Shown here: piece by piece, positions 1 to 11,460 of the stretch
How positions within the stretch are numbered: position 1 is the first letter of the stretch
Layout: the number at the start of each line of letters is the position of its first letter
Notes under the pieces: generated by a model
Databases searched by the model: none
Told to the model about the DNA's origin: nothing
The model's input: only the letters and a program-made list of their open reading frames with translations
Source: Filobasidium wieringae
Taxonomy: Eukaryota > Basidiomycota > Tremellomycetes > Filobasidiales > Filobasidiaceae
Assembly: GCA_001600055.1 (NCBI GenBank)
Contig: BCIV01000009.1
Coordinates: 434,001 to 498,000, forward strand
Reading direction: 5' to 3'
Length of the DNA stretch: 64,000 bases
Program-made: the position numbers and the translations under genes

Positions 1-1998
1 TGTCCAGTCTTTATCCGACGTGGGAGTGGCGCATCGAGACCGTTACTCAAGGGTGCGAACTGCTCAGAACGATGACAGTGGATCTATCGGCTGACTATGT
101 CGCAGACCGACCCTCGGTCACTACCTGCTGGAATCTCCTGAAAACTTGGCGGGACAAGTTCCGCCTGCCAGGGACGGAATTTGATGACCCGTATAGCTCT
201 TTGATCAACCAAGCAAAGGCTTTAGCAGGGAGGATCAAACTCATTCGTCCCTTACCAGATCCAAGCAAAGTCAAAGGCGAAACCAAAGGACCCAAGAAGA
301 AGGGAAATCTCCCAGAGGTGATCCGTAACTGTATCAAAGTCGGTTTTAGCACCATAAACTCTGCTGCCTCATCTATGGTGGTTCCGCTCTTTAAAAGGCA
401 CCCTTTAGTGATTCTCGACGAAGGTATGGCGGTTTCACGTCATTTGCTAGCACACGACAGAAGCGCTGATACAATCCTTTGATCACAGCTAGTCAATGTA
501 TCGAGCCGGAGATTATGATTCTCCTTCACCCTGAAATCACTGGTCTTGTTGCGATCGGAGATCCACAGCAGCTACCTTCTGTAGTCATGAACAAAACGCT
601 CGAGCGAAAGGGACTCGGTCGCTCGCTCTTCCAAAGGCTGATAGAAGGGAAAAGCCCCTATCATATGCTCAGCACACAATATCGCATGTGTCCTAGCATC
701 TCACAATGGCCGTCCGGGCACTTTTATGGTGGTAAGATCACAAATGGGCCAAATGTTATGCTGCCTGCTCGAGCGCCGACTTGGCAAACGAAAGGCAACA
801 TTTTACTCTGCCCGTACACCTATATCAACGTAACAGGATTGGAGCATCGGAACGATATGACTCAAAGCTTCAGTAATCCAGTTGAATGTGACGTGGCTTA
901 CGAGTTGGTGAAAGAGTTGATGCGTCAAGCTGCACGAATTTCGTTTTCGGGACTCATCGAAGTCGGATGCGTCACTGGCTATACTGAGCAAGTCAAAGCG
1001 CTGAAAGACAAGCTGTGTACCCTCGAAGGTGCTATTGCGGTTGAGACTGGGTCTCGTATCGAACGTGTTCTCGTGAGGATCGCGCCTCTGTGTCAGTTAG
1101 GTCTCGACATCGCATCGGTCGACGCGTTTCAGGGTCAAGAGAGGGATATGATCATTTTTTGCACCACTCGCGCCAATGTGGGAGGTGGAATCGGATTCTT
1201 GAGTATGTGCATAAATTATGGATAAGCCATATTGGTTACTGAATGCATAATTTGTCCTACGCAGACGATGGCCGCCGATTGAACGTCGCGCTCACACGCG
1301 CGCGGTTTGCGTTGAAAATCCTGGGAAACGCTGCTACGCTCGCCTCATCACCCATGTGGTCCGATCTGGCTAAGGACGCAAAGGATAGAGATTGCTACCT
1401 AGAGGGTGCTGCATTGTTCCCAGATTTGGCTTTGCCCCCCGCATCACGCAGCGATCCGTACAAAAATAAGGGTTCGATGAAGCAGGATGCGCGCTTCAGG
1501 GAACTCGTCGATTATGACGTTGAACATTCCTCAAAGTGGAGGGTCGTTCTGACTAAGAGCGCCTTGAGCGATGTAGAGGGTCTCGTAATCGACAAGCAGC
1601 TCGCTTTACGTAATTCTCTTGCGGCATTTGCTGGTGGTTACAACGGGGCACAGCAACAAAAGACAGACGGTATTAAAGGATGTCCGACCTTCATCAAGCG
1701 CTTCAAATTTGGAGACCGTTTCATCATATGGACCGTCTTAGTTGTTCCTAAGAAGCCCAAGCTCGGCGTGGATATTACAGACGCTAATCAAGCAACGCTA
1801 TATCACTATCAACAAGTGATCTGCGTATGGAGCATCTCCACTGAGAAAAGCGCCAAATATATGGTTAGGGCCATTCGAACCGCATGCGAGGAACTTCAGC
1901 CGGAATACTTGACATTCTGTGAACAGGTCGAGATAAGGAAGAAGAAGGCTCTGCCCGTTTTCTTTAGTACGTCTAGACCACTGACACCCGCTTTGTAG
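1..1998 (+). CDS. UPF1-like SF1 helicase, C-terminal part (5' end outside window)
   Basis: This is the C-terminal part of a superfamily-1B (UPF1/ZNFX1-like) RNA/DNA helicase; the Walker A half lies upstream of base 1. Exons read 1-423, 489-1202 and 1265-1998, entering at base 3 in frame. Visible motifs in order are ILDE|A (motif II, split by the first intron), GDPQQLPS (III), QYRMCP (IV), DAFQGQERD (V) and RLNVALTRAR (VI, just after the second intron). It is a paralogue of the next gene: the same intron positions split LDE|A and precede the RLNVA motif, and the linker (WEWR versus WNWR) and post-helicase region also align. It stops after about 250 codons past motif VI, where the neighbour continues into a second helicase. 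A 32-nt GTACGT..CTGAC..TAG stretch at 1967-1998 could be an intron that would move the stop to about 2060. Substrate and pathway are not evident. Confidence 0.85.
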
Positions 1999-2951
1999 CA
2001 GCAAGACGAGACGATCAAGGGCAGAATTTAGACTATATAGGTGTGACCATACGCTCGACCTGAGAGATCCTGAGATACGCGAACGTTGTTTCCGTTTGAT
2101 TTCGGACGAAATAAGATATCCATTTATGCATCTTCATTTCTGTAGAACGAAGATGCCCGATATGGCTCATTGCCCCAGTTACCGTAGTTACCTTGAAGCA
2201 GTATCGGAGGATTTACATCCATATATGTCTTTGTATTTGGCAATCAGGTGCTTCCGAATTCAAACGAACCTGTAGACTGTAGACAAGCAAATGTCGTTCG
2301 GTGAGAGGCTGACATCTTTTTGTGCACGGTATGAAGATGTAGATGTTAGATAGCAGTCGGACTAAGCCGTATGCAGTCCCTATTCATACCACCACTCACC
2401 TACTCTAATAGTAGCGAACACTAGTCTACACTGTTCTCGATATCGCTAGATGGATATATACACATACAGATTCCTAGGCGGCTCTATAGCAGATCATTTC
2501 ATCGATCATACCATTTACGCAGCCAGGTCCCGTGTCGCAGTATGAGACATCGACGACAGCAAATCTCACGCTATGACTGGGGTTCAAGAAGCAAAGAGAA
2601 AAGAAGCGTGAAAGAAGCGGCAAGAAGCGCCGAAAGAACAAGTCTGGGATGATGATCTTCTAGATCTGGGACAAGACATCAGATTCGCTGTTGTGAAACA
2701 CGTCGAAAGGAAGTTCTAAGCCGTAGATCCACAAAACAAGGGTCAAGCGATATTTAATGTCCCGACAAGAATCATGCCGATTTTTGGGGATGTAAATGTG
2801 TAAAGGAAGGGACAGGTGCTTAGCCCTGACATCCAGGCCATTTGATGTATGTATAAGTCACATAAGAGTCAGATTTCGCGTAAGAAGAGACGGCGTCGAA
2901 TTGACATATCGTGTTTCTCCTTGCAACCAACGGAACGAGCGTGACTTCAAT
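1999..2951. other. Region between the helicase genes, with coding-like remnants
   Basis: Bases 1999-2570 hold no gene I can support. From about 2574 to 2780 one plus-strand frame looks coding: a Lys/Arg/Glu-rich start, then a run with WDDDLLDLGQD and VPTRIMPIFGD. It carries in-frame stops (a TGA near 2613 and a TAA near 2717). A good intron (GTAAAT..CTGACATCCAG, about 2790-2832) follows and would join a short ATG exon starting near 2759 to the helicase frame downstream. So the true 5' end of the large helicase gene may lie here, or this may be an eroded 5' exon left by the duplication. Confidence 0.4.
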
Positions 2952-5900
2952 ATGACTGCATTCGAGCCCGTCGGCGGAAACGAAACCCACACGGGAGAAC
3001 TAATCACCACTATTCTTACCTGGACACCTGAGATCCTGAAAGATTGCGATTACTATGAAGGCCTGGTTCTTGACCTTCCTCATTTACCCGTTCTAGATAA
3101 CGATATGGAGCGATACAAGCAGGCATATCGTCCTGCTGTTCTCATAGAGCTGCATCAAGGTCTGTATGCCGCTTTGGACCGTCCCGACAAGTCCACCCGG
3201 CACATCAAGAGCACCTTGATCGAGGAAATTAGTACCCGCTCGAAGATTGAATGCCGGGCTTCAAGAAGTGTTATGCTTCGTTTGCGTATGCAGCAAGATC
3301 CTCTGGCTAGATCGCTGGACTTCGTATTTATTTCCCCCTCTTCAGAACCCTGGTTGGAGACAAGCGTAGTTTGTGCTACGGGAGTGGTAGCGTTTGTGCC
3401 GAAGCTTGAACGCGCAGATGGAAATATAGACGATCCGCCGGCCTGGTACGAAGTTCATGTGGAGGTGCCAGTCAACTATGCGGAATACATTGAGATGCTG
3501 GGAGATGCAGGGAAACTTCGTATGACAGTGATCGCATCGATCGCTTCAGGATTCCGTATCTTTGAGGCTCTATGCGGGGGAGATCATTCCGAACTGCTCA
3601 GTCATCATATCCTCAACCCTGGACCTTCACTCGACGCGGAAAGAGCGACTCTTAACCCTCTGCACGCTGACTTGATCGAGCATGTTGCTTCGTAAGTACA
3701 AGAGACGCTCTCGTCCCAAATAGCAAGCCTGACGTTCTTCCGATGGTTTTGTAGGGTGAACAAACCATTGAATCATGCACAAAAGCTGGCCATCCTAGCA
3801 GCTATGAGGCCTGTCTCTGAAGTGTGTCGTTACCCCATCCTCATTCACGGTCCACCCGGTACGGGTAAAACTCACACGCTTTCCAGCATGATCTTATCGA
3901 TTGCCCTGCTCAAGCCTAAGCAATTGATACACGTCGTGGCACCGAGCAACGCCGCGATGCGACAAGTAGCGGTTAGGCTTCTCCGCGACATAGAACGGAC
4001 GGGAATTCTTCATACTTCCCAATTAGCTCTACACGGACATGAGGATAACATCGATGTAGCGGATGGAATCGAGGGCATCTATCACAACATGCGGGTGAAA
4101 CGCTTGAAAGACATTCGTCGAAGACTATACAGTTTCAAGACAGATACACAGAACTTCTACTCGACGATTAGTAAAGAAGCGGGCTCGGAACTTCCGTTGG
4201 TGCTGACCTGGAATTGGAGAAAGGAGACGATTGAAGAAGGCTGCCGTATAATGTTCGCTCTTCGCAAGGATCTTGGCCCTACGTTTGTCAAAGGGTATCC
4301 TGAAGTAGATCGCGCGTTGTCGTTGATGCAGCAATGGCTGTCTCGAATCAAGCCTTCGTCGAAGTCACTAGTCGACCTGAATGAGAATCTGTTCGAGCTT
4401 GCAGCCACTTCGATTGCCAGCATCAGCTTGAATTCGTTCGATGATGAGGCACTTGCCAAGCATGCAGTCGTCTGCTTCAGCACAGTCAACGCTGCCGGCA
4501 ATGCCGGTATGAGACAGTCAGCTTCTCGCCGACCCTTAGTTGTATTGGATGAAGGTAAGCTGTTGGCTTCATCACTTTGTTAGATCATGTACTGAACCTC
4601 GACGAAACTCAGCGACGCAATGCACAGAGGCAGAAATGAATATCGTGTTGCGCCGCGGTATCGTAGGTCTCGTAGCGATCGGAGATCCGAAGCAGCTGCC
4701 TCCTGTTATCCTCAAACAAGAGCTTAGACCCAGACAGTATGCGATCTCCCTATTCGCTCGCCTCTTGTCTGCATGCACCCCGCACACCCTACTCAATGTG
4801 CAGTATCGCATGCATCCCGACATATCGAGTTGGCCCTCCCGGCAGTTTTATGACGGCAAGGTCGTGAATGGCCTCAATGTCGTCGCAGCGTCCAGAAAAC
4901 CGCAGTGGCAAGAAGAGGGACAACGGCTCTTATCGCCGTATTCGTACATATCCATACCGGGCGTGGAAGAAAGGAATGAAGAGACTCGTAGTTATAAGAA
5001 TTCGACCGAGGCCGACATAGTGGTTGCTTTCATCAAGCAACTCGTAATGACTTTGACTACTACCAATCATGTCGGAACTGTTGAAGTTGGGTGTATCAGC
5101 GGATACACAGAACAGGCGCAGCTGATCCAGCGGAAGCTTGGATCAATGCAACAGGCATCGTTCTGGGATACCAAATCCCGCATCGTTCGAGTTCAAATCC
5201 GAGTGTCAGAAGATTGCGCTATTGCGATCGATATAGCATCGGTCGACGCGTTCCAAGGGCAGGAACGCGATATCATCGTGTTTTGCACGACGCGGGCCAA
5301 TCCTCAGAAAAATATCGGATTTTTGAGTGAGTTATATTTGGTTTGATCTCGTCGAATCTAGTAAACAGTCACACTCATTTTATGCTCGAATAGGTACCGT
5401 TGAGAGATTGAACGTGGCGATAACTCGCGCTCGGTTTGCATTGAAAATATTGGCGAACGTTACAACTTTAGCATCTTCCCCGACTTGGGATGGGCTTGCC
5501 AAGGATGCACAGGCTCGGGGATGCTTCTTGAAGGCTTCAGAATGCCTAGCGCAACTGGACCTTCCTACAAAGAAATTGGAAAGTGCAAAATTCGCGGAGA
5601 AGGTATCACACCTCCGGGTTCCGATACTTGAAGTGCGGGTCAGACCGAGCGATGGTTTGCATACTGCATCTGACTTAGAACTAGAGCTAGAGTCTGTCTG
5701 GCGTATCGTATTCACCAAGACCTGCAAGCAGGAAATCCAGCAGCTTGACAAAGCTATGGCTAGCAATATCGTGCAATGCTTCGGTGTCTTTGCGAAAGGT
5801 TACCCAGCGAAGGCCTGCAGAGTCGGTCACGACATTCGGGAACGGACAAATTTTGTTAAAAGATTGCCTATCAGAGATCGTACGCTGCTCTGGAGCGTGC

Positions 5901-8900
5901 GAATGCTCTCAGTCCCTGACATAAGCCCGAATGCCCAGAGATCATACACCTACAGTCAGGCTATTTGGATCTGGGCCTTTCCTCCAAATTCCGATCTCGA
6001 GGCAATGATCAGGAGTATTCGCAACGCTTGCGAGGGCTTCACGGACGAATATATGGATTTGTGTAGTGCTCAGAATTGGATAGAGCGAAGAGTTCTGCCA
6101 TTGTCGATCACTCGAGAGGAAGCCCTTGTCGAAAGGCGCGTGCTACATGCGGAGGCGAACTTTTCAATCACGGCTGGCAGCAATGAGCAGGATTTAGCCA
6201 AAGCATATGAGGTCACGCCTCGTGTAGAAACGGCACTTGTCAAGGGGTTCTTGTCAACGGTAGAGCTGCCATTCGTCACGTCTGCTGAAGAGACAGCCTT
6301 AGTGCACAGCACAAAAAGCGCCTTTGTGATAGGACGGTCAGGTACTGTGAGTTTTTGTTGCATGAGCTGAACCCTCTACCAAGATGACTGATTGATCAAT
6401 ACGTCTTGTAGGGCAAGACAACTGTAATGCTGGCTAAAATCTACGTCAAAGCTATGAGCACGGAGAACACTCGTTGCGCTCAAATACTGTTAACAGTCAG
6501 CCCTAGGTTGTGTTCTGCTATTTCCGAGCATTATCATCGGCTTAGTAGCAGCTGGAGAAGCGGAGATGGCGCCCCTGGAGCTATGGCGCTGATGACTACT
6601 AGAGATATTGATGAAGCTCTTGTTGATGAAGAGGAGCTTCCCTCGCTTACAGACATCTCAAATGAACAATTCCCACTTTTCTGGACGTTTGCTACACTCT
6701 TGAAAGTCCTTGACAAGTCGCTTCCAGACCCATTCTGGGCGTTCAATACCGGATGTACTGGCCGTATATCGGTCGAGGTGGATGGCGATCGGTTCAGAAC
6801 ACATTACATGCACCGTATGCCTTCATCAGCTCAAAAAAGATTCCAAGGAGGGGCAGCCCTGTTTGGAGAGATCCAGACCGTCATTAAAGGCTCGTTACAA
6901 GCCCTACTGCAGGGCAAGTTCCTGTCTCAGAAGCAATACCTGGATATCTGGAACAGTCGCAATACGGTTTTCACTCTGGCAGAGATGGAAACTATCTATT
7001 CTTGTTTCCAAATCTATCAGAACTCCTTGACCGAGAAGAGAGAATGGGACCTCAACGATGCGGTGCAGAACATCTACCAAAGATGCACTATCTCGCCGGA
7101 AATCTGCCAACCCTTCATACTCGAGACACTGGCCATAGATGAGGTGCAGGATATGGTATGTAGAAGTCCGGTTGTCAATAACGAAAGCTGAGCTGAATAA
7201 CTTTCGTTCACCTAGAGTCTGGCGTCTCTGGCTCTACTTAAATTCCTCCTAAATGGTCCAGGCGCGCATGAGGCCATACACTACGCTGGGGATGCTGCTC
7301 AAGTCATCAATTCAGCTGCGAACTTCCGCTTTGCGGATTTGAAAGAGCTTTACTTTTCCGTTTATCTCCCTCATTTTGCCAAGACAGATGGAGAGATCGC
7401 CAGCATTCTTGAGAATGCATCTTCAGCCGGACATCTTGTTCCTGAACTCGAACCTCTTACCATGAACTACCGTTCGGTTCAACCTATTGTTGCTCTTGGA
7501 AATGCGGTCATTCAATACATCACAAGGTACTTCCCGAACAGTATCGATCGGTTGAAGCCAGATTACGGACTGGCACAAGGTTCCTTGCCTGTGTTCTTCC
7601 AAACAATGAGCGTGGAAGCCTTCTTATCAAGGGTGATTGGATCGGAGAGTCGTGTTGAGTTCGGAAATATCGAGCTTGGTGCTGATCAGGCAATCATCGT
7701 ACGTAACTCTGATGTGAAGAAAGCAGTGCAGGCGCTGCTCGGTCCGATTGCGATAGTTTTAGATATTAGGGAGTGCAAAGGTCTGGAATTTGAAGTGAGT
7801 ACTTGCCTAGCTAGAAGCCATCAATCTGAACCTCACCGGAAGTCCCATTGACCGTCACGACCTTCAGGATGTTATATTATTTAACTTCTTCAGCGACTCT
7901 CCTGTGTCCCGATGGAGAGCGTTGGACGAGAATGCTTTGGGAAAAGGGGTTTTCGACCCTTTGATCGATCACGGTCTCCTTTTTGAACTGAAGCAGCTGT
8001 ACGTGGCCGTTACCAGAGCCAGAAGTAATCTGTGGATCTATGATGAGAGTACGCACGGCGCAACAATGAACGAGCTGTTAGAAAAGCAAAGCCTCGTTAC
8101 AAGCTTGGGCGAGTCAGATTTCGGAGACGCAACGGGACTTGCAAAGCGCTCCACATCTGAAGAATGGCTCAATGCTGGACAGCGTTTCATGACAAGCGAG
8201 AACTACTCAGTAAGTTCCGGTAGCCCTATGGAACACGGGACGAGACTAACTGTTGGTCCGGGCACCCAGCAAGCTGTGTCATGCTTTGTCAAGGCAGGCG
8301 ACCGGCCCAATGCACAGAAGGCACGTGCTTATGTACTTGTTCAAGCCGCAATCGCTCTTGAAGGCGTAGGAAAAGCTTGTGACATTAAGGAAGCTGCAAA
8401 GCATCGATCTGAAGCAGCCTCGCTGTTTTCAGAAATCGGTTCTTGGAGAAATGCTGCTGGGCAGTATGAGCTTGCCGCCTCAGCATTGTCGCGGAACGGT
8501 CTCTTCAAGAAAGCGGCAAAGTGTTGGGCGCAGTGTGCACCTGCTCCATCCGCAGGCAGGGCCTTGTTGCAATGCTTGCAGAAAATTGGTCCCGCGGGGT
8601 ATATCGATGTGATCGATGCTCTAGAATTGTCCTGGATCGCAAAGGATGCGGAGTATCAAGTCTTTCGCGAGACATTCACGTTCCGAGTTGCGGATGACCT
8701 GAAGGACTTGGAGATAGCTCGCTTAGCGGCTTTGTTCCCTGAAATAGACGAGGGAGTTCAGTTTCTGCAAGACCAAGGTCGTTGTGCAGTTGTGGACATA
8801 CTTCTTCGAAACAAGGGTGAGTGGGAGCGATTAGCTGTATTTTATGAGGGCACGGGACAGCTACCTACAGCACTAGAGTATTGGGAACTCGGTTATCGGA

Positions 8901-11460
8901 ACGACAGAACCGCCGATATCAAGCAAACCTATTTGATGCTGGACAATTGGTTAGATCTGCACAGCATGATTCTGAACAATGCTTCCAATTCGGGGCACCC
9001 TACCAAGACGTCAGCTGTCAGTACGCGACTCCTTCTGAACCCCTACTACAAGCTACTGCGATCCTAACACACGTGCCAGAACATTCAATTCCCCCATTCT
9101 TGGGATGATATCAAGGTATCTCTCGACGATCCCCGTATCATCGATGCTGCATCCGATTGGAATGAAAACGTGGATCGTTTAAGCGATTTTGCATCCTATT
9201 TACAAACCGGTAGCTTTCCAAAAGGATATCATGTAGTCGATTTAGGAATATACCGTCTCACAAACGACGAGGATCTTTGCCTAGTGACTGATTCTCAAAT
9301 CGAGTTATGGAGAGAGCCAGAGTTGGCCAATCTGTCCAGAACAAGCCAGTCGTGGCAAGCCATCACCACAACAAAGCTAGCCAGGTTGATTGGTCGGTAT
9401 ACTGCCAGAATCCTTGCGCACATCGAGCAGATCGTTTCTAACTTGTTAATAAGCTATATACAAGCCATGGACAAGCTGACAGGCCCTACGAAAGAAACTA
9501 TATCAAAGCGTTTGCGATTTGAGGTTAGTAACCAGCTTTCAAATATTAGCTAGATACTAACGATTCTACTTACAGACAATTTACGGAAAGCAACTTCTTC
9601 GTATGAATTCCGAAACCGAGTACAGGCAATCGACGCATATATGATGCGTATGGACGAAGTGTTATTCCCCTTGCAATCCGATGAGCTCGATGTGGTCCGT
9701 ATAGCCTGGTCATCGCAGGCAGTCAATATGGGCCTCTTGAGACGCCTCTTAAAGCGTCGACAAGGATGTTCGATGGAGGTATCTCCCAATGTAGCTATGA
9801 TCGCTCTTAGATGGACTGGCCAGGGAGATAGAGTGCTGCGGTTGGAACCGAATCGTCCGGCTATCAAGCTGGTTTACGAAGCTATAGAATGGAGCACCTG
9901 TGACGAAAACCGCCCGTTGGCTAATTCAGTGGAGCGGCTGAACGATTTTTTCAGGAAGCATCTACCGAGTCTGGTTCCACAATCCCCATCATGTGATATA
10001 GACCAAACATCGGAATCAAGAACTGTGAACGAGAAATCACTCCTTTTTATACTGGACAAGTTACTTCTTGGTACCTTCGCGTTATCTACCAGATTTTCGG
10101 AGATCGTGCTACCTCAATCTCTAGTAACTTCAGAATTGATGGGAGCGCAAAGTCGCGCGATCTCTGCTCTACTGGAACGCAGACCAATAAAAGGCAAACG
10201 TACATCTGGCACTGTCGACTACTTAGACGGTTTCAACTACAGATGGTATTTTAGCAGGTTTGGTGATGAGCTTCGTAGCTGGCTATTAGGTCAGGTTGGA
10301 AGTCCTGGCAATCTTGCTCGGTTGACACATACCATCCCGTCATGGCGTCGACTTGCCTTCGTCGAGCATCTCATAGTCCTTGCCATCTGCGCTTGTTGCA
10401 ATCAGGCCTTTTCAGGAAACCAAAATAACACGAGCCGATACAATCTCTTCAGATTGACTTGTCTGCCTTTGTTGGCAAACGACCTGCAATATGCCAGCTT
10501 ACGGCCCATACTACAGACACTCGAAACACATCAGAACAGCGTGCCACTTTTCATCGCGAAGCTGAAGGATGTTGCACGATCGCTGAAGCAGCCTATCACA
10601 ACTGTTATCGACCCTAAGTGGTGGCGAAATGATACACCCGGTTATCACTCGCTTAAATCGATACCCAAGCTGTACATCCAGGTGCATACGAAAAAATTGC
10701 AGCTATCAGAAGATCTGCATTTTGAGTCTCTTGTCAGGGAGCTACCAGCTAGACAGCCCGTTGCTGAGGAGAACACGCCCTTTTTGCCAACGGTCAAAGA
10801 GCAGGAACCGACAGCTCTTCCAGCCGATCCGACGGAGATGGGTGAGACGAATGAACCCGAAATGGAGGTCGACGCCCCGGGAGTGCAAGAAATGTTTAAA
10901 TCGTCAGTTGAGAATCTTGCGGATGTTCAGGCTAGAGCTATGGTGAAATGGAATAGTCCTGTCCTCACACGATGCATCCGAAATTGGGTTCGGAGACCTA
11001 TCGCGTTCCGCGACTTCGCGAGGGCGCTTGACGAGATCGACAAGGATGCCTTCCGAAAGCTATATCGTCTAAGTTTGCGGCGCGAGTTGTTTGGTGCCTA
11101 CTCTGCACACGCTATCTCTGCCTTGTCTCTTCTGGCTTCTTCTTGCTTTGAAGATGGGAGGCAGGTACTTTTATCGGCAAAAAAGGACAAGGGAGCGGCC
11201 ATCGTAAAGAAAGTCGTTACAGGAGCAGGGAAAGGCAACAGGACAACATGGCTGAGAGATTTTAGAAAGGCGCATGCCGGAGTGTCAGCAGAAGTGAAGT
11301 GTTACGCAAATATATCCGACAAGAAGAGACGGTATCTGCCCCTATGATCATAAGACAATCGAATGATCTACAGGAAAGCCTTGATGCTTTTGAGAAGAAC
11401 TACGGTCCAATGGTTCAAAGCATTATGAAGAAGCTAGTGGATAACAAGGCATCAGAATGA
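2952..11460 (+). CDS. Double-helicase protein: UPF1-like plus UvrD-like (TRANK1-like)
   Basis: Eleven exons join into about 2,631 aa: 2952-3691, 3755-4554, 4613-5326, 5394-6346, 6412-7155, 7216-7794, 7868-8209, 8270-9016, 9080-9527, 9576-11298, 11355-11460. The N-terminal helicase shows GPPGTGKT (about residue 279), LDE|A, GDPKQLPP, QYRMHP, DAFQGQERD and RLNVAITRAR. A second, UvrD/TRANK1-type helicase follows: GRSGT|GKT (about 1065, split by an intron), DEVQD, GDAAQ, NYRS, KGLEFE|DV and YVAVTRAR. About 1,000 residues of helix-rich, TPR-like sequence follow. TRANK1 (tetratricopeptide and ankyrin repeat protein 1) is the nearest family I can name for the second half. Both ATPase sites look intact. 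The start is uncertain: 2952 is the first ATG followed by clearly coding sequence, but the frame is open upstream and extra 5' exons are possible. The biological role is unknown. Confidence 0.85.

Follow-up and report, generated by a model that had tools for sequence, protein, structure and literature searches.

Helicase motors of the UPF1/SEN1 type move 5' to 3'. In published work, motors of superfamily (SF) 1A and 1B are described as moving in opposite directions (PMC8469786), and both PcrA/UvrD (PMC8318588) and SEN1 (PMC12511879) have been connected with R-loops. According to a published list, the UPF1-like group of Ustilago maydis comprises Sen1, Upf1 and Hcs1 plus one protein that is putatively specific to basidiomycetes (PMC12511879). 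Human TRANK1 is a susceptibility gene for bipolar disorder, a kind of gene whose exact functions are said to be largely unknown (PMC8278099). Here we analyze a window of 64,000 nucleotides from the basidiomycete Filobasidium wieringae (C9:434001-498000, where C9 is contig BCIV01000009.1; assembly of 19.76 Mb in 33 contigs), in which two adjacent genes, gene 1 and gene 2, carry a UPF1-like helicase. Judging from its sequence, gene 2 very probably encodes, by architecture and by family, a single polypeptide in which a UPF1/SEN1-like helicase (SF1B) is followed by a helicase of the UvrD/TRANK1 type (SF1A). The best explanation overall, to which we give a probability of roughly 0.45, is that gene 2 is one member of a whole family of such fusions and encodes a two-motor protein that splits RNA:DNA hybrids.

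The model of gene 2 (Table 1) was made from the sequence alone and ends where the first-pass annotation of this DNA had placed the end of the gene. It contains ten introns of 48-80 nt, all of them GT-AG; the last one, the 48-nt one and a 63-nt one at 9017 were picked among alternatives. Motifs I to VI are intact in both helicase cores. The UPF1-like core has GPPGTGKT at residue 279, LDEA at 511, GDPKQLP at 537, QYRMHP at 577, VDAFQGQE at 724 and LNVAITRARFAL at 757, and the UvrD-like core has GRSGTGKTT at 1065, DEVQD at 1312, GDAAQ at 1342, MNYRS at 1400, CKGLEFEDV at 1504 and VAVTRARSNL at 1556. The earlier claim, that one chain has two full SF1 motif sets from distinct subfamilies and that the second set is of the TRANK1 type, therefore stands, both sets being present. 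The Pfam profiles that had been proposed as a check all scored above their curated cut-offs, AAA_12 (1.8e-50) and AAA_11 (2.5e-30) in the first half of the protein and UvrD-helicase (2.3e-9) and UvrD_C (8.4e-7) in the second; these four matches are well beyond chance. It seemed conceivable that the two halves are separate genes. However, one exon (5394-6346) has a stop-free frame that runs from motif VI of the UPF1-like core to GRSGT, with which the P-loop of the UvrD core begins, and a single exon bridging both cores makes two separate genes very unlikely, in agreement with the first reading of the locus.

Relatives of gene 2 were collected in three protein searches, of which the best 120 of 152, 768 and 568 proteins were kept (7,993 candidates were scored in the second). 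This gave 353 proteins, or 355 with the two window genes. It should be noted that the search finds only proteins with exact words in common with the query, and that fusions in Dikarya may exist beyond the matches listed. According to our own profiles, 53 of the 355 proteins among the matches listed combine a UPF1 part, a RelE-like domain and a UvrD core in one chain. They are gene 2 and proteins of land plants, green algae, Phlyctochytrium arcticum and three Allomyces species, together with one metagenome and one EukProt entry. The family is also represented in the moss Ceratodon purpureus (P0002). The fusion, as predicted from these profiles, is thus widespread outside Dikarya, which the first-pass annotation had missed, as it had the RelE-type fold predicted for the bridge between the motors. 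It seems to be rare in the branch of fungi to which gene 2 belongs: among the matches listed there is no named Dikarya fusion besides gene 2, and the named Dikarya matches have a TRANK1-type UvrD core or else are other helicases of the UPF1 group, such as SEN1.

The predicted parts of the fusions follow a fixed order, with an N-terminal extension, the UPF1/SEN1-like motor, the RelE-like domain, the UvrD-like motor and a TPR-like region. The plant members, named as 'TPR and ankyrin repeat-containing' or UvrD-like helicase ATP-binding domain proteins, have about 2,700 amino acids (aa) with DUF6469, AAA_11/12 and UvrD. They have the same parts in the same order as gene 2, the RelE-like bridge included, but are very divergent from it (in the first 28 rows, identity is 27-31% and the match covers 48-59% of the query). 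The protein of Phlyctochytrium arcticum (P0241) came top, among the matches listed, both for the UPF1-side search and for the UvrD half (2.7e-85). Like P0242, one of the three Allomyces fusions (P0242, P0243 and P0245), it has AAA_11, AAA_12, UvrD and UvrD_C in a single chain. These proteins belong to fungi far from basidiomycetes and are 29-37% identical to gene 2, depending on the half compared. As for the outer parts of gene 2, hhalign aligned the N-termini of genes 1 and 2 with those of the plant proteins (prob 73, E 3e-5, 194 columns), the values for Phlyctochytrium and Allomyces being prob 25 and prob 1.8, and DUF6469 was not called by Pfam in gene 2. The TPR-like region had its best BLAST match in the same region of the plant fusions (1e-9). 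Further downstream, no Pfam family scored above its cut-off in window 9161-11460, and residues 2051-2623 had no BLAST match among those listed at E 0.1. Animal TRANK1 and the Dikarya proteins that are TRANK1-only resemble gene 2 in that a RelE-like domain precedes the UvrD core, but they have no UPF1-like motor, and no UPF1 remnant was found in the N-termini of nine fungal TRANK1-only proteins. All ten TRANK1-type proteins of an alignment that we call A2 have in common, in identical or almost identical form, a CCCH-like motif close to the C-terminus (residues 1550-1568 of P0054); a search of gene 2 for this pattern gave no match.

Two points are new: the bridge with its predicted RelE fold, and the existence of another copy that lacks the UvrD motor. 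The bridge comprises about residues 795-1000 of gene 2, and an equivalent stretch closes gene 1. In two models made for the window genes, it is predicted to adopt a RelE/ParE-type beta-alpha-alpha-beta-beta-beta fold. The likeness to the RelE/ParE superfamily lies in this predicted fold, whereas the sequence of the bridge, which sits within a helicase chain, gave no match to the profiles of five Pfam and four NCBIfam members. In profile matches, on the other hand, the bridge corresponds to the segment that precedes UvrD, both in the plant fusions (10 rows, prob 98, E 2e-13) and in fungal TRANK1-only proteins (9 rows, prob 97, E 1.3e-10), four controls reaching prob 3 or less. The piece from gene 1 alone matched the fungal TRANK1-only set (prob 92.9, E 3.7e-7), the plants (prob 91) and, weakly, Phlyctochytrium (prob 21).

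A RelE-like profile built from gene 2 and 19 matches (gene 2, in the profile, 4.5e-29; gene 1, not in it, 6.2e-17) was then compared with the whole protein set. A TRANK1-type UvrD core is present in 94 of the 355 proteins, and 80 of these 94 have the RelE-like domain, always upstream of the core; when the rows that went into the profile are set aside, the count is 60 of 74. The five animal TRANK1 rows, of which one was used for the profile, all have the domain. Of the 14 proteins without it, ten start no more than 22 residues from the core and look cut short, and P0031, P0032, P0069 and P0070 are not explained by a short N-terminus. Among the 245 proteins having a UPF1 part but no UvrD core, the domain was found in nine, namely gene 1 and eight others, all of which have DUF6469 in their Pfam line; it was found in none of the 16 SEN1, SETX (senataxin), UPF1 and MAA3 rows of the tree described below. 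If the TRANK1 motor is indeed preceded by a RelE-type fold, this would offer a structural handle on the family, including human TRANK1, and the bridge may hint at the role of this little-understood protein.

The conserved columns of the RelE-like domain are W, G, D, Q and W, with no basic residue or tyrosine among them, and binding would therefore be expected rather than cleavage. The domain could serve for gripping RNA or for docking and not as a nuclease. A rival view is a role in surveillance directed at ribosomes or mRNA. The domain would then dock on these in the manner of RelE and Cami1, with the RNA being pulled by the UPF1-like motor, and the UvrD-like motor would work on structured RNA or be only regulatory. 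We regard this as unlikely: a common fold proves no function, the composition of the conserved columns speaks against it, and UvrD-type motors are chiefly known as DNA helicases (PMC12511879).

The first-pass annotation covered only the later part of gene 1. In our model, also made from the sequence alone, its start lies upstream of the window, at C9:432785 (L009:8785), and the whole gene, which ends at window 1998, encodes 1,007 aa with AAA_12 (1.3e-38) at window 470-1225. The claim that the two adjacent genes share a UPF1-like helicase was borne out, since gene 1 is 37% identical to residues 15-996 of gene 2, a match that covers almost all of gene 1, and its three introns coincide in place and phase with the first three of gene 2. 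Gene 1 consists of a UPF1/SEN1-like motor and a RelE-like domain and ends just past that domain. We read it as a tandem duplicate having the front motor and the RelE-like domain and no UvrD motor. It looks like a fusion that shed its second motor, because it keeps the RelE-like domain that is typical of TRANK1-type proteins. For the same reason, the opposite view, that gene 1 is the unfused ancestor, is disfavored, although an ancestor already bearing the domain is possible. A tblastn search of window 1901-3000 detected no UvrD remnant 3' of gene 1. This natural tandem of a two-motor gene and a one-motor copy would permit a direct test of the role of each motor.

Gene 1 also bears on the possibility that gene 2 encodes a motor for DNA repair or for replication forks, in which the UvrD-like motor works on DNA and the UPF1-like part aids loading, with no special role for RNA. 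Such a function would fit the full UvrD motif set, the existence in fungi and animals of TRANK1-type proteins without a UPF1 half and, as weak evidence in a fungus, the Y-family polymerase gene upstream of gene 1. It would, however, leave unexplained why gene 1 has a UPF1-like motor and a RelE-like domain but no UvrD part, and we consider it improbable.

Phylogenetic trees were made for each half. In the tree of the UPF1 half (59 rows, none of them ZNFX1), genes 1 and 2 form a pair (100/100) that groups with Phlyctochytrium (95/90). The enclosing clade (97/89) contains the fusions, DUF6469 helicases and two chytrid proteins, with a DUF6469 protein of Naegleria lying outside it. This clade is apart from UPF1 (100/97) and from the SEN1-MAA3-SETX group (90/87). 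As placed by this tree, the first motor of gene 2 is not in the UPF1 clade of nonsense-mediated decay and is outside the SEN1/SETX/MAA3 group. SEN1/senataxin and UPF1 are the closest solved relatives of this motor, with values in a sequence search of PDB of 6.9e-49 for SEN1 and 3.4e-45 for NAM7/UPF1, and by BLAST alone some SEN1 proteins equal the chytrid protein as matches to the first half of gene 2. Yet they form separate clades, and the genome has its own SEN1-like gene (C12:363k) and UPF1-like gene (C1:844k). Moreover, neither the CH domain of UPF1 (PF09416) nor SEN1_N (PF12726) was listed for residues 1-800 of gene 2, and SEN1_N was also not listed in the Pfam-scanned frames. The first-pass annotation had suggested kinship with ZNFX1, SAD-3 and Hrr1, which the same PDB search does not support, ZNFX1 coming far behind (1.6e-18). 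A search of the genome for the ZNFX1 family found nothing, and neither did its controls. ZNFX1 is characterized by NF-X1 zinc fingers, and no such finger was found in the Pfam-scanned frames, which include the whole of gene 2 except for its 28 C-terminal residues.

In the tree of the UvrD half (44 rows), the 17 TRANK1-only rows (12 named Dikarya and five metagenome rows) form one clade (100/97). Gene 2, on a long branch, is placed among the fusions (85/94) and nearest to Phlyctochytrium (84/72), so that both half-trees agree on its nearest neighbor. Rooting with bacteria again gave gene 2 with the fusions (91/92), but this root is unsafe because two rows from Oscillospiraceae were placed inside, with a branch length of 5.94. 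Approximately unbiased (AU) tests rejected neither gene 2 with the 17 TRANK1-only rows (p 0.258) nor all fungi as one clade (p 0.425); gene 2 with land plants had p 0.062, a value on which a transfer from land plants is disfavored. These results bear on whether the fusion was acquired horizontally from a donor outside Dikarya rather than kept from an early ancestor. On the one hand, a chytrid is the nearest kin in both half-trees, and no other named Dikarya fusion is among the matches listed. On the other hand, a single clade of all fungi is not rejected, the test with land plants gives the low value just mentioned, the introns are short, the chromosomal setting is ordinary, and Dikarya fusions may lie beyond the matches listed, as explained above. 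Horizontal acquisition is, in our view, rather unlikely.

Possible relatives were also found in bacteria. A prokaryote scan with A2 gave at least 591 stretches, and nine loci were confirmed. Three of the nine, in metagenome-assembled genomes of Candidatus Obscuribacterales (L051, L052 and L053), match over the whole UvrD core; for the other six the best E in a profile scan was 0.47. The N-terminus of L051 matches YoeB at 0.005 (PDB and NCBIfam), and in L051 and L053 Pfam gives UvrD followed by TPRs. Taken together, the three proteins align collinearly with the RelE-UvrD region of eukaryotes across 623 columns (prob 99.8, E 2.9e-30), although their RelE part alone is weakly matched to the eukaryotic one (prob 13; controls 0.1 and 0.2). 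Thus, the bacterial proteins have the order RelE-UvrD-TPR in common with eukaryotic TRANK1, but differ from gene 2 in having no UPF1-like motor and a length of 1,187-1,225 aa. It is possible that they represent a bacterial root of the TRANK1 family. A broader scheme, which is unlikely to be right in all its steps, would then be that bacterial and animal members of the family alike consist of a UvrD motor under the guidance of a RelE-fold domain, that a second motor, of SF1B type and opposite polarity, was fused in front of it early in eukaryotes to give a single-chain machine acting on both strands of an RNA:DNA hybrid, and that in this fungus the gene was duplicated and one copy lost the DNA motor, leaving an RNA-only partner gene.

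How might two such motors work together? The mechanism that we propose, tentatively and with some doubt, is the splitting of RNA:DNA hybrids. The SF1B motor of the UPF1/SEN1 type would move 5' to 3' and the SF1A motor of the UvrD type 3' to 5'. As the strands of an RNA:DNA hybrid are antiparallel, motors of opposite polarity, one on each strand, would run the same way along it. With the first motor on the RNA and the second on the template DNA, a single chain could then split the hybrid, and gene 1 might be a helper or a competitor on the RNA side. RecBCD, in which two SF1 motors of opposite polarity split duplex DNA, offers a working analogy without kinship: there, too, two such motors act together, but they are separate subunits, a nuclease is present and the substrate is a DNA duplex. 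If joint action on RNA:DNA hybrids is true, gene 2 would represent a single-chain design, and we know of no other hybrid-removing helicase with two motors in one chain. Among the matches listed in our literature searches there was no functional study of the fusion and no RelE fold named for TRANK1 ('RelE' also matched 'release').

Table 1. Positions of the features described in the text (window positions unless a locus is named).
Feature	Position	Strand	Basis
Gene 1, window part (introns 424-488 and 1203-1264, third upstream)	1..1998	+	gene model, motifs
Predicted RelE-fold domain of gene 1 (aa 852-990)	1528..1944	+	predicted fold
Gene 2, two-motor protein	2952..11460	+	gene model, 11 exons, 2,623 aa
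N-terminal extension of gene 2, perhaps DUF6469-like	2952..3767	+	hhalign
UPF1/SEN1-like SF1B helicase core of gene 2 (aa 252-773)	3768..5458	+	AAA_11, AAA_12
Exon joining UPF1 motif VI, RelE-fold domain and first half of UvrD P-loop	5394..6346	+	open frame
Predicted RelE-fold domain of gene 2 (aa 852-979)	5693..6076	+	predicted fold
UvrD/TRANK1-type SF1A core of gene 2 (about aa 1045-1580)	6272..8077	+	UvrD-helicase, UvrD_C, motifs
TPR-like region of gene 2 (about aa 1600-1900)	8135..9158	+	SNAP family 0.0014, below cut-off; BLAST
C-terminal region of gene 2	9161..11460	+	no recognised family
RelE-UvrD-TPR proteins, Candidatus Obscuribacterales	L051:2491-6099, L052:2470-6144, L053:2077-5637

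The surroundings of the locus touch on the proposal, made in the first-pass annotation, that gene 2 serves genome defense, that is, RNA interference (RNAi) or the control of viruses or transposons. The genome does contain RNAi genes, with four loci for RNA-dependent RNA polymerase (C3:500941, C5:228000, C15:158732 and C4:613112) and one Piwi/Argonaute locus (C19:241608), and parts of the RelE-fold and UvrD types recur in conflict systems. However, no link of gene 1 or gene 2 to these RNAi genes was seen, the first motor is nearer by sequence to SEN1 and UPF1 than to ZNFX1, and the neighbors that could be named by Pfam (six of the ten neighboring frames scanned) look like housekeeping genes: on the upstream side a Y-family polymerase, and on the downstream side GLTSCR1, C2, myosin, Ndc80 and PIG-N. 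A role in genome defense therefore appears very unlikely.

A search of this genome with the UvrD half matched only the exons of gene 2 itself, and a further UvrD_C locus is present at C7:909k. As for the affinity of the genome, its acetyl-CoA synthetase exons came closest to PDB chain 5ifi, from Cryptococcus neoformans (526 against 447 bits), which suits a basidiomycete related to Cryptococcus. Prp8 was uninformative, its top PDB entry coming from work on the human spliceosome, and a search for the telomere repeat of the Tremellales type had a negative result. Two further loci of the UPF1 group were noted, at C9:603213-604280 and C1:1352316-1353629; one of them is like proteins of Panaeolus and Moniliophthora (P0204, P0216), and one has stops in the matched stretch. 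The gene for the Y-family DNA polymerase (IMS, IMS_HHH), which precedes gene 1, lies on the minus strand at L009:5786-6082, and short repeated units of the TCTCAGATC type were seen by eye 5' of the start of gene 1, at L009:8535-8575.

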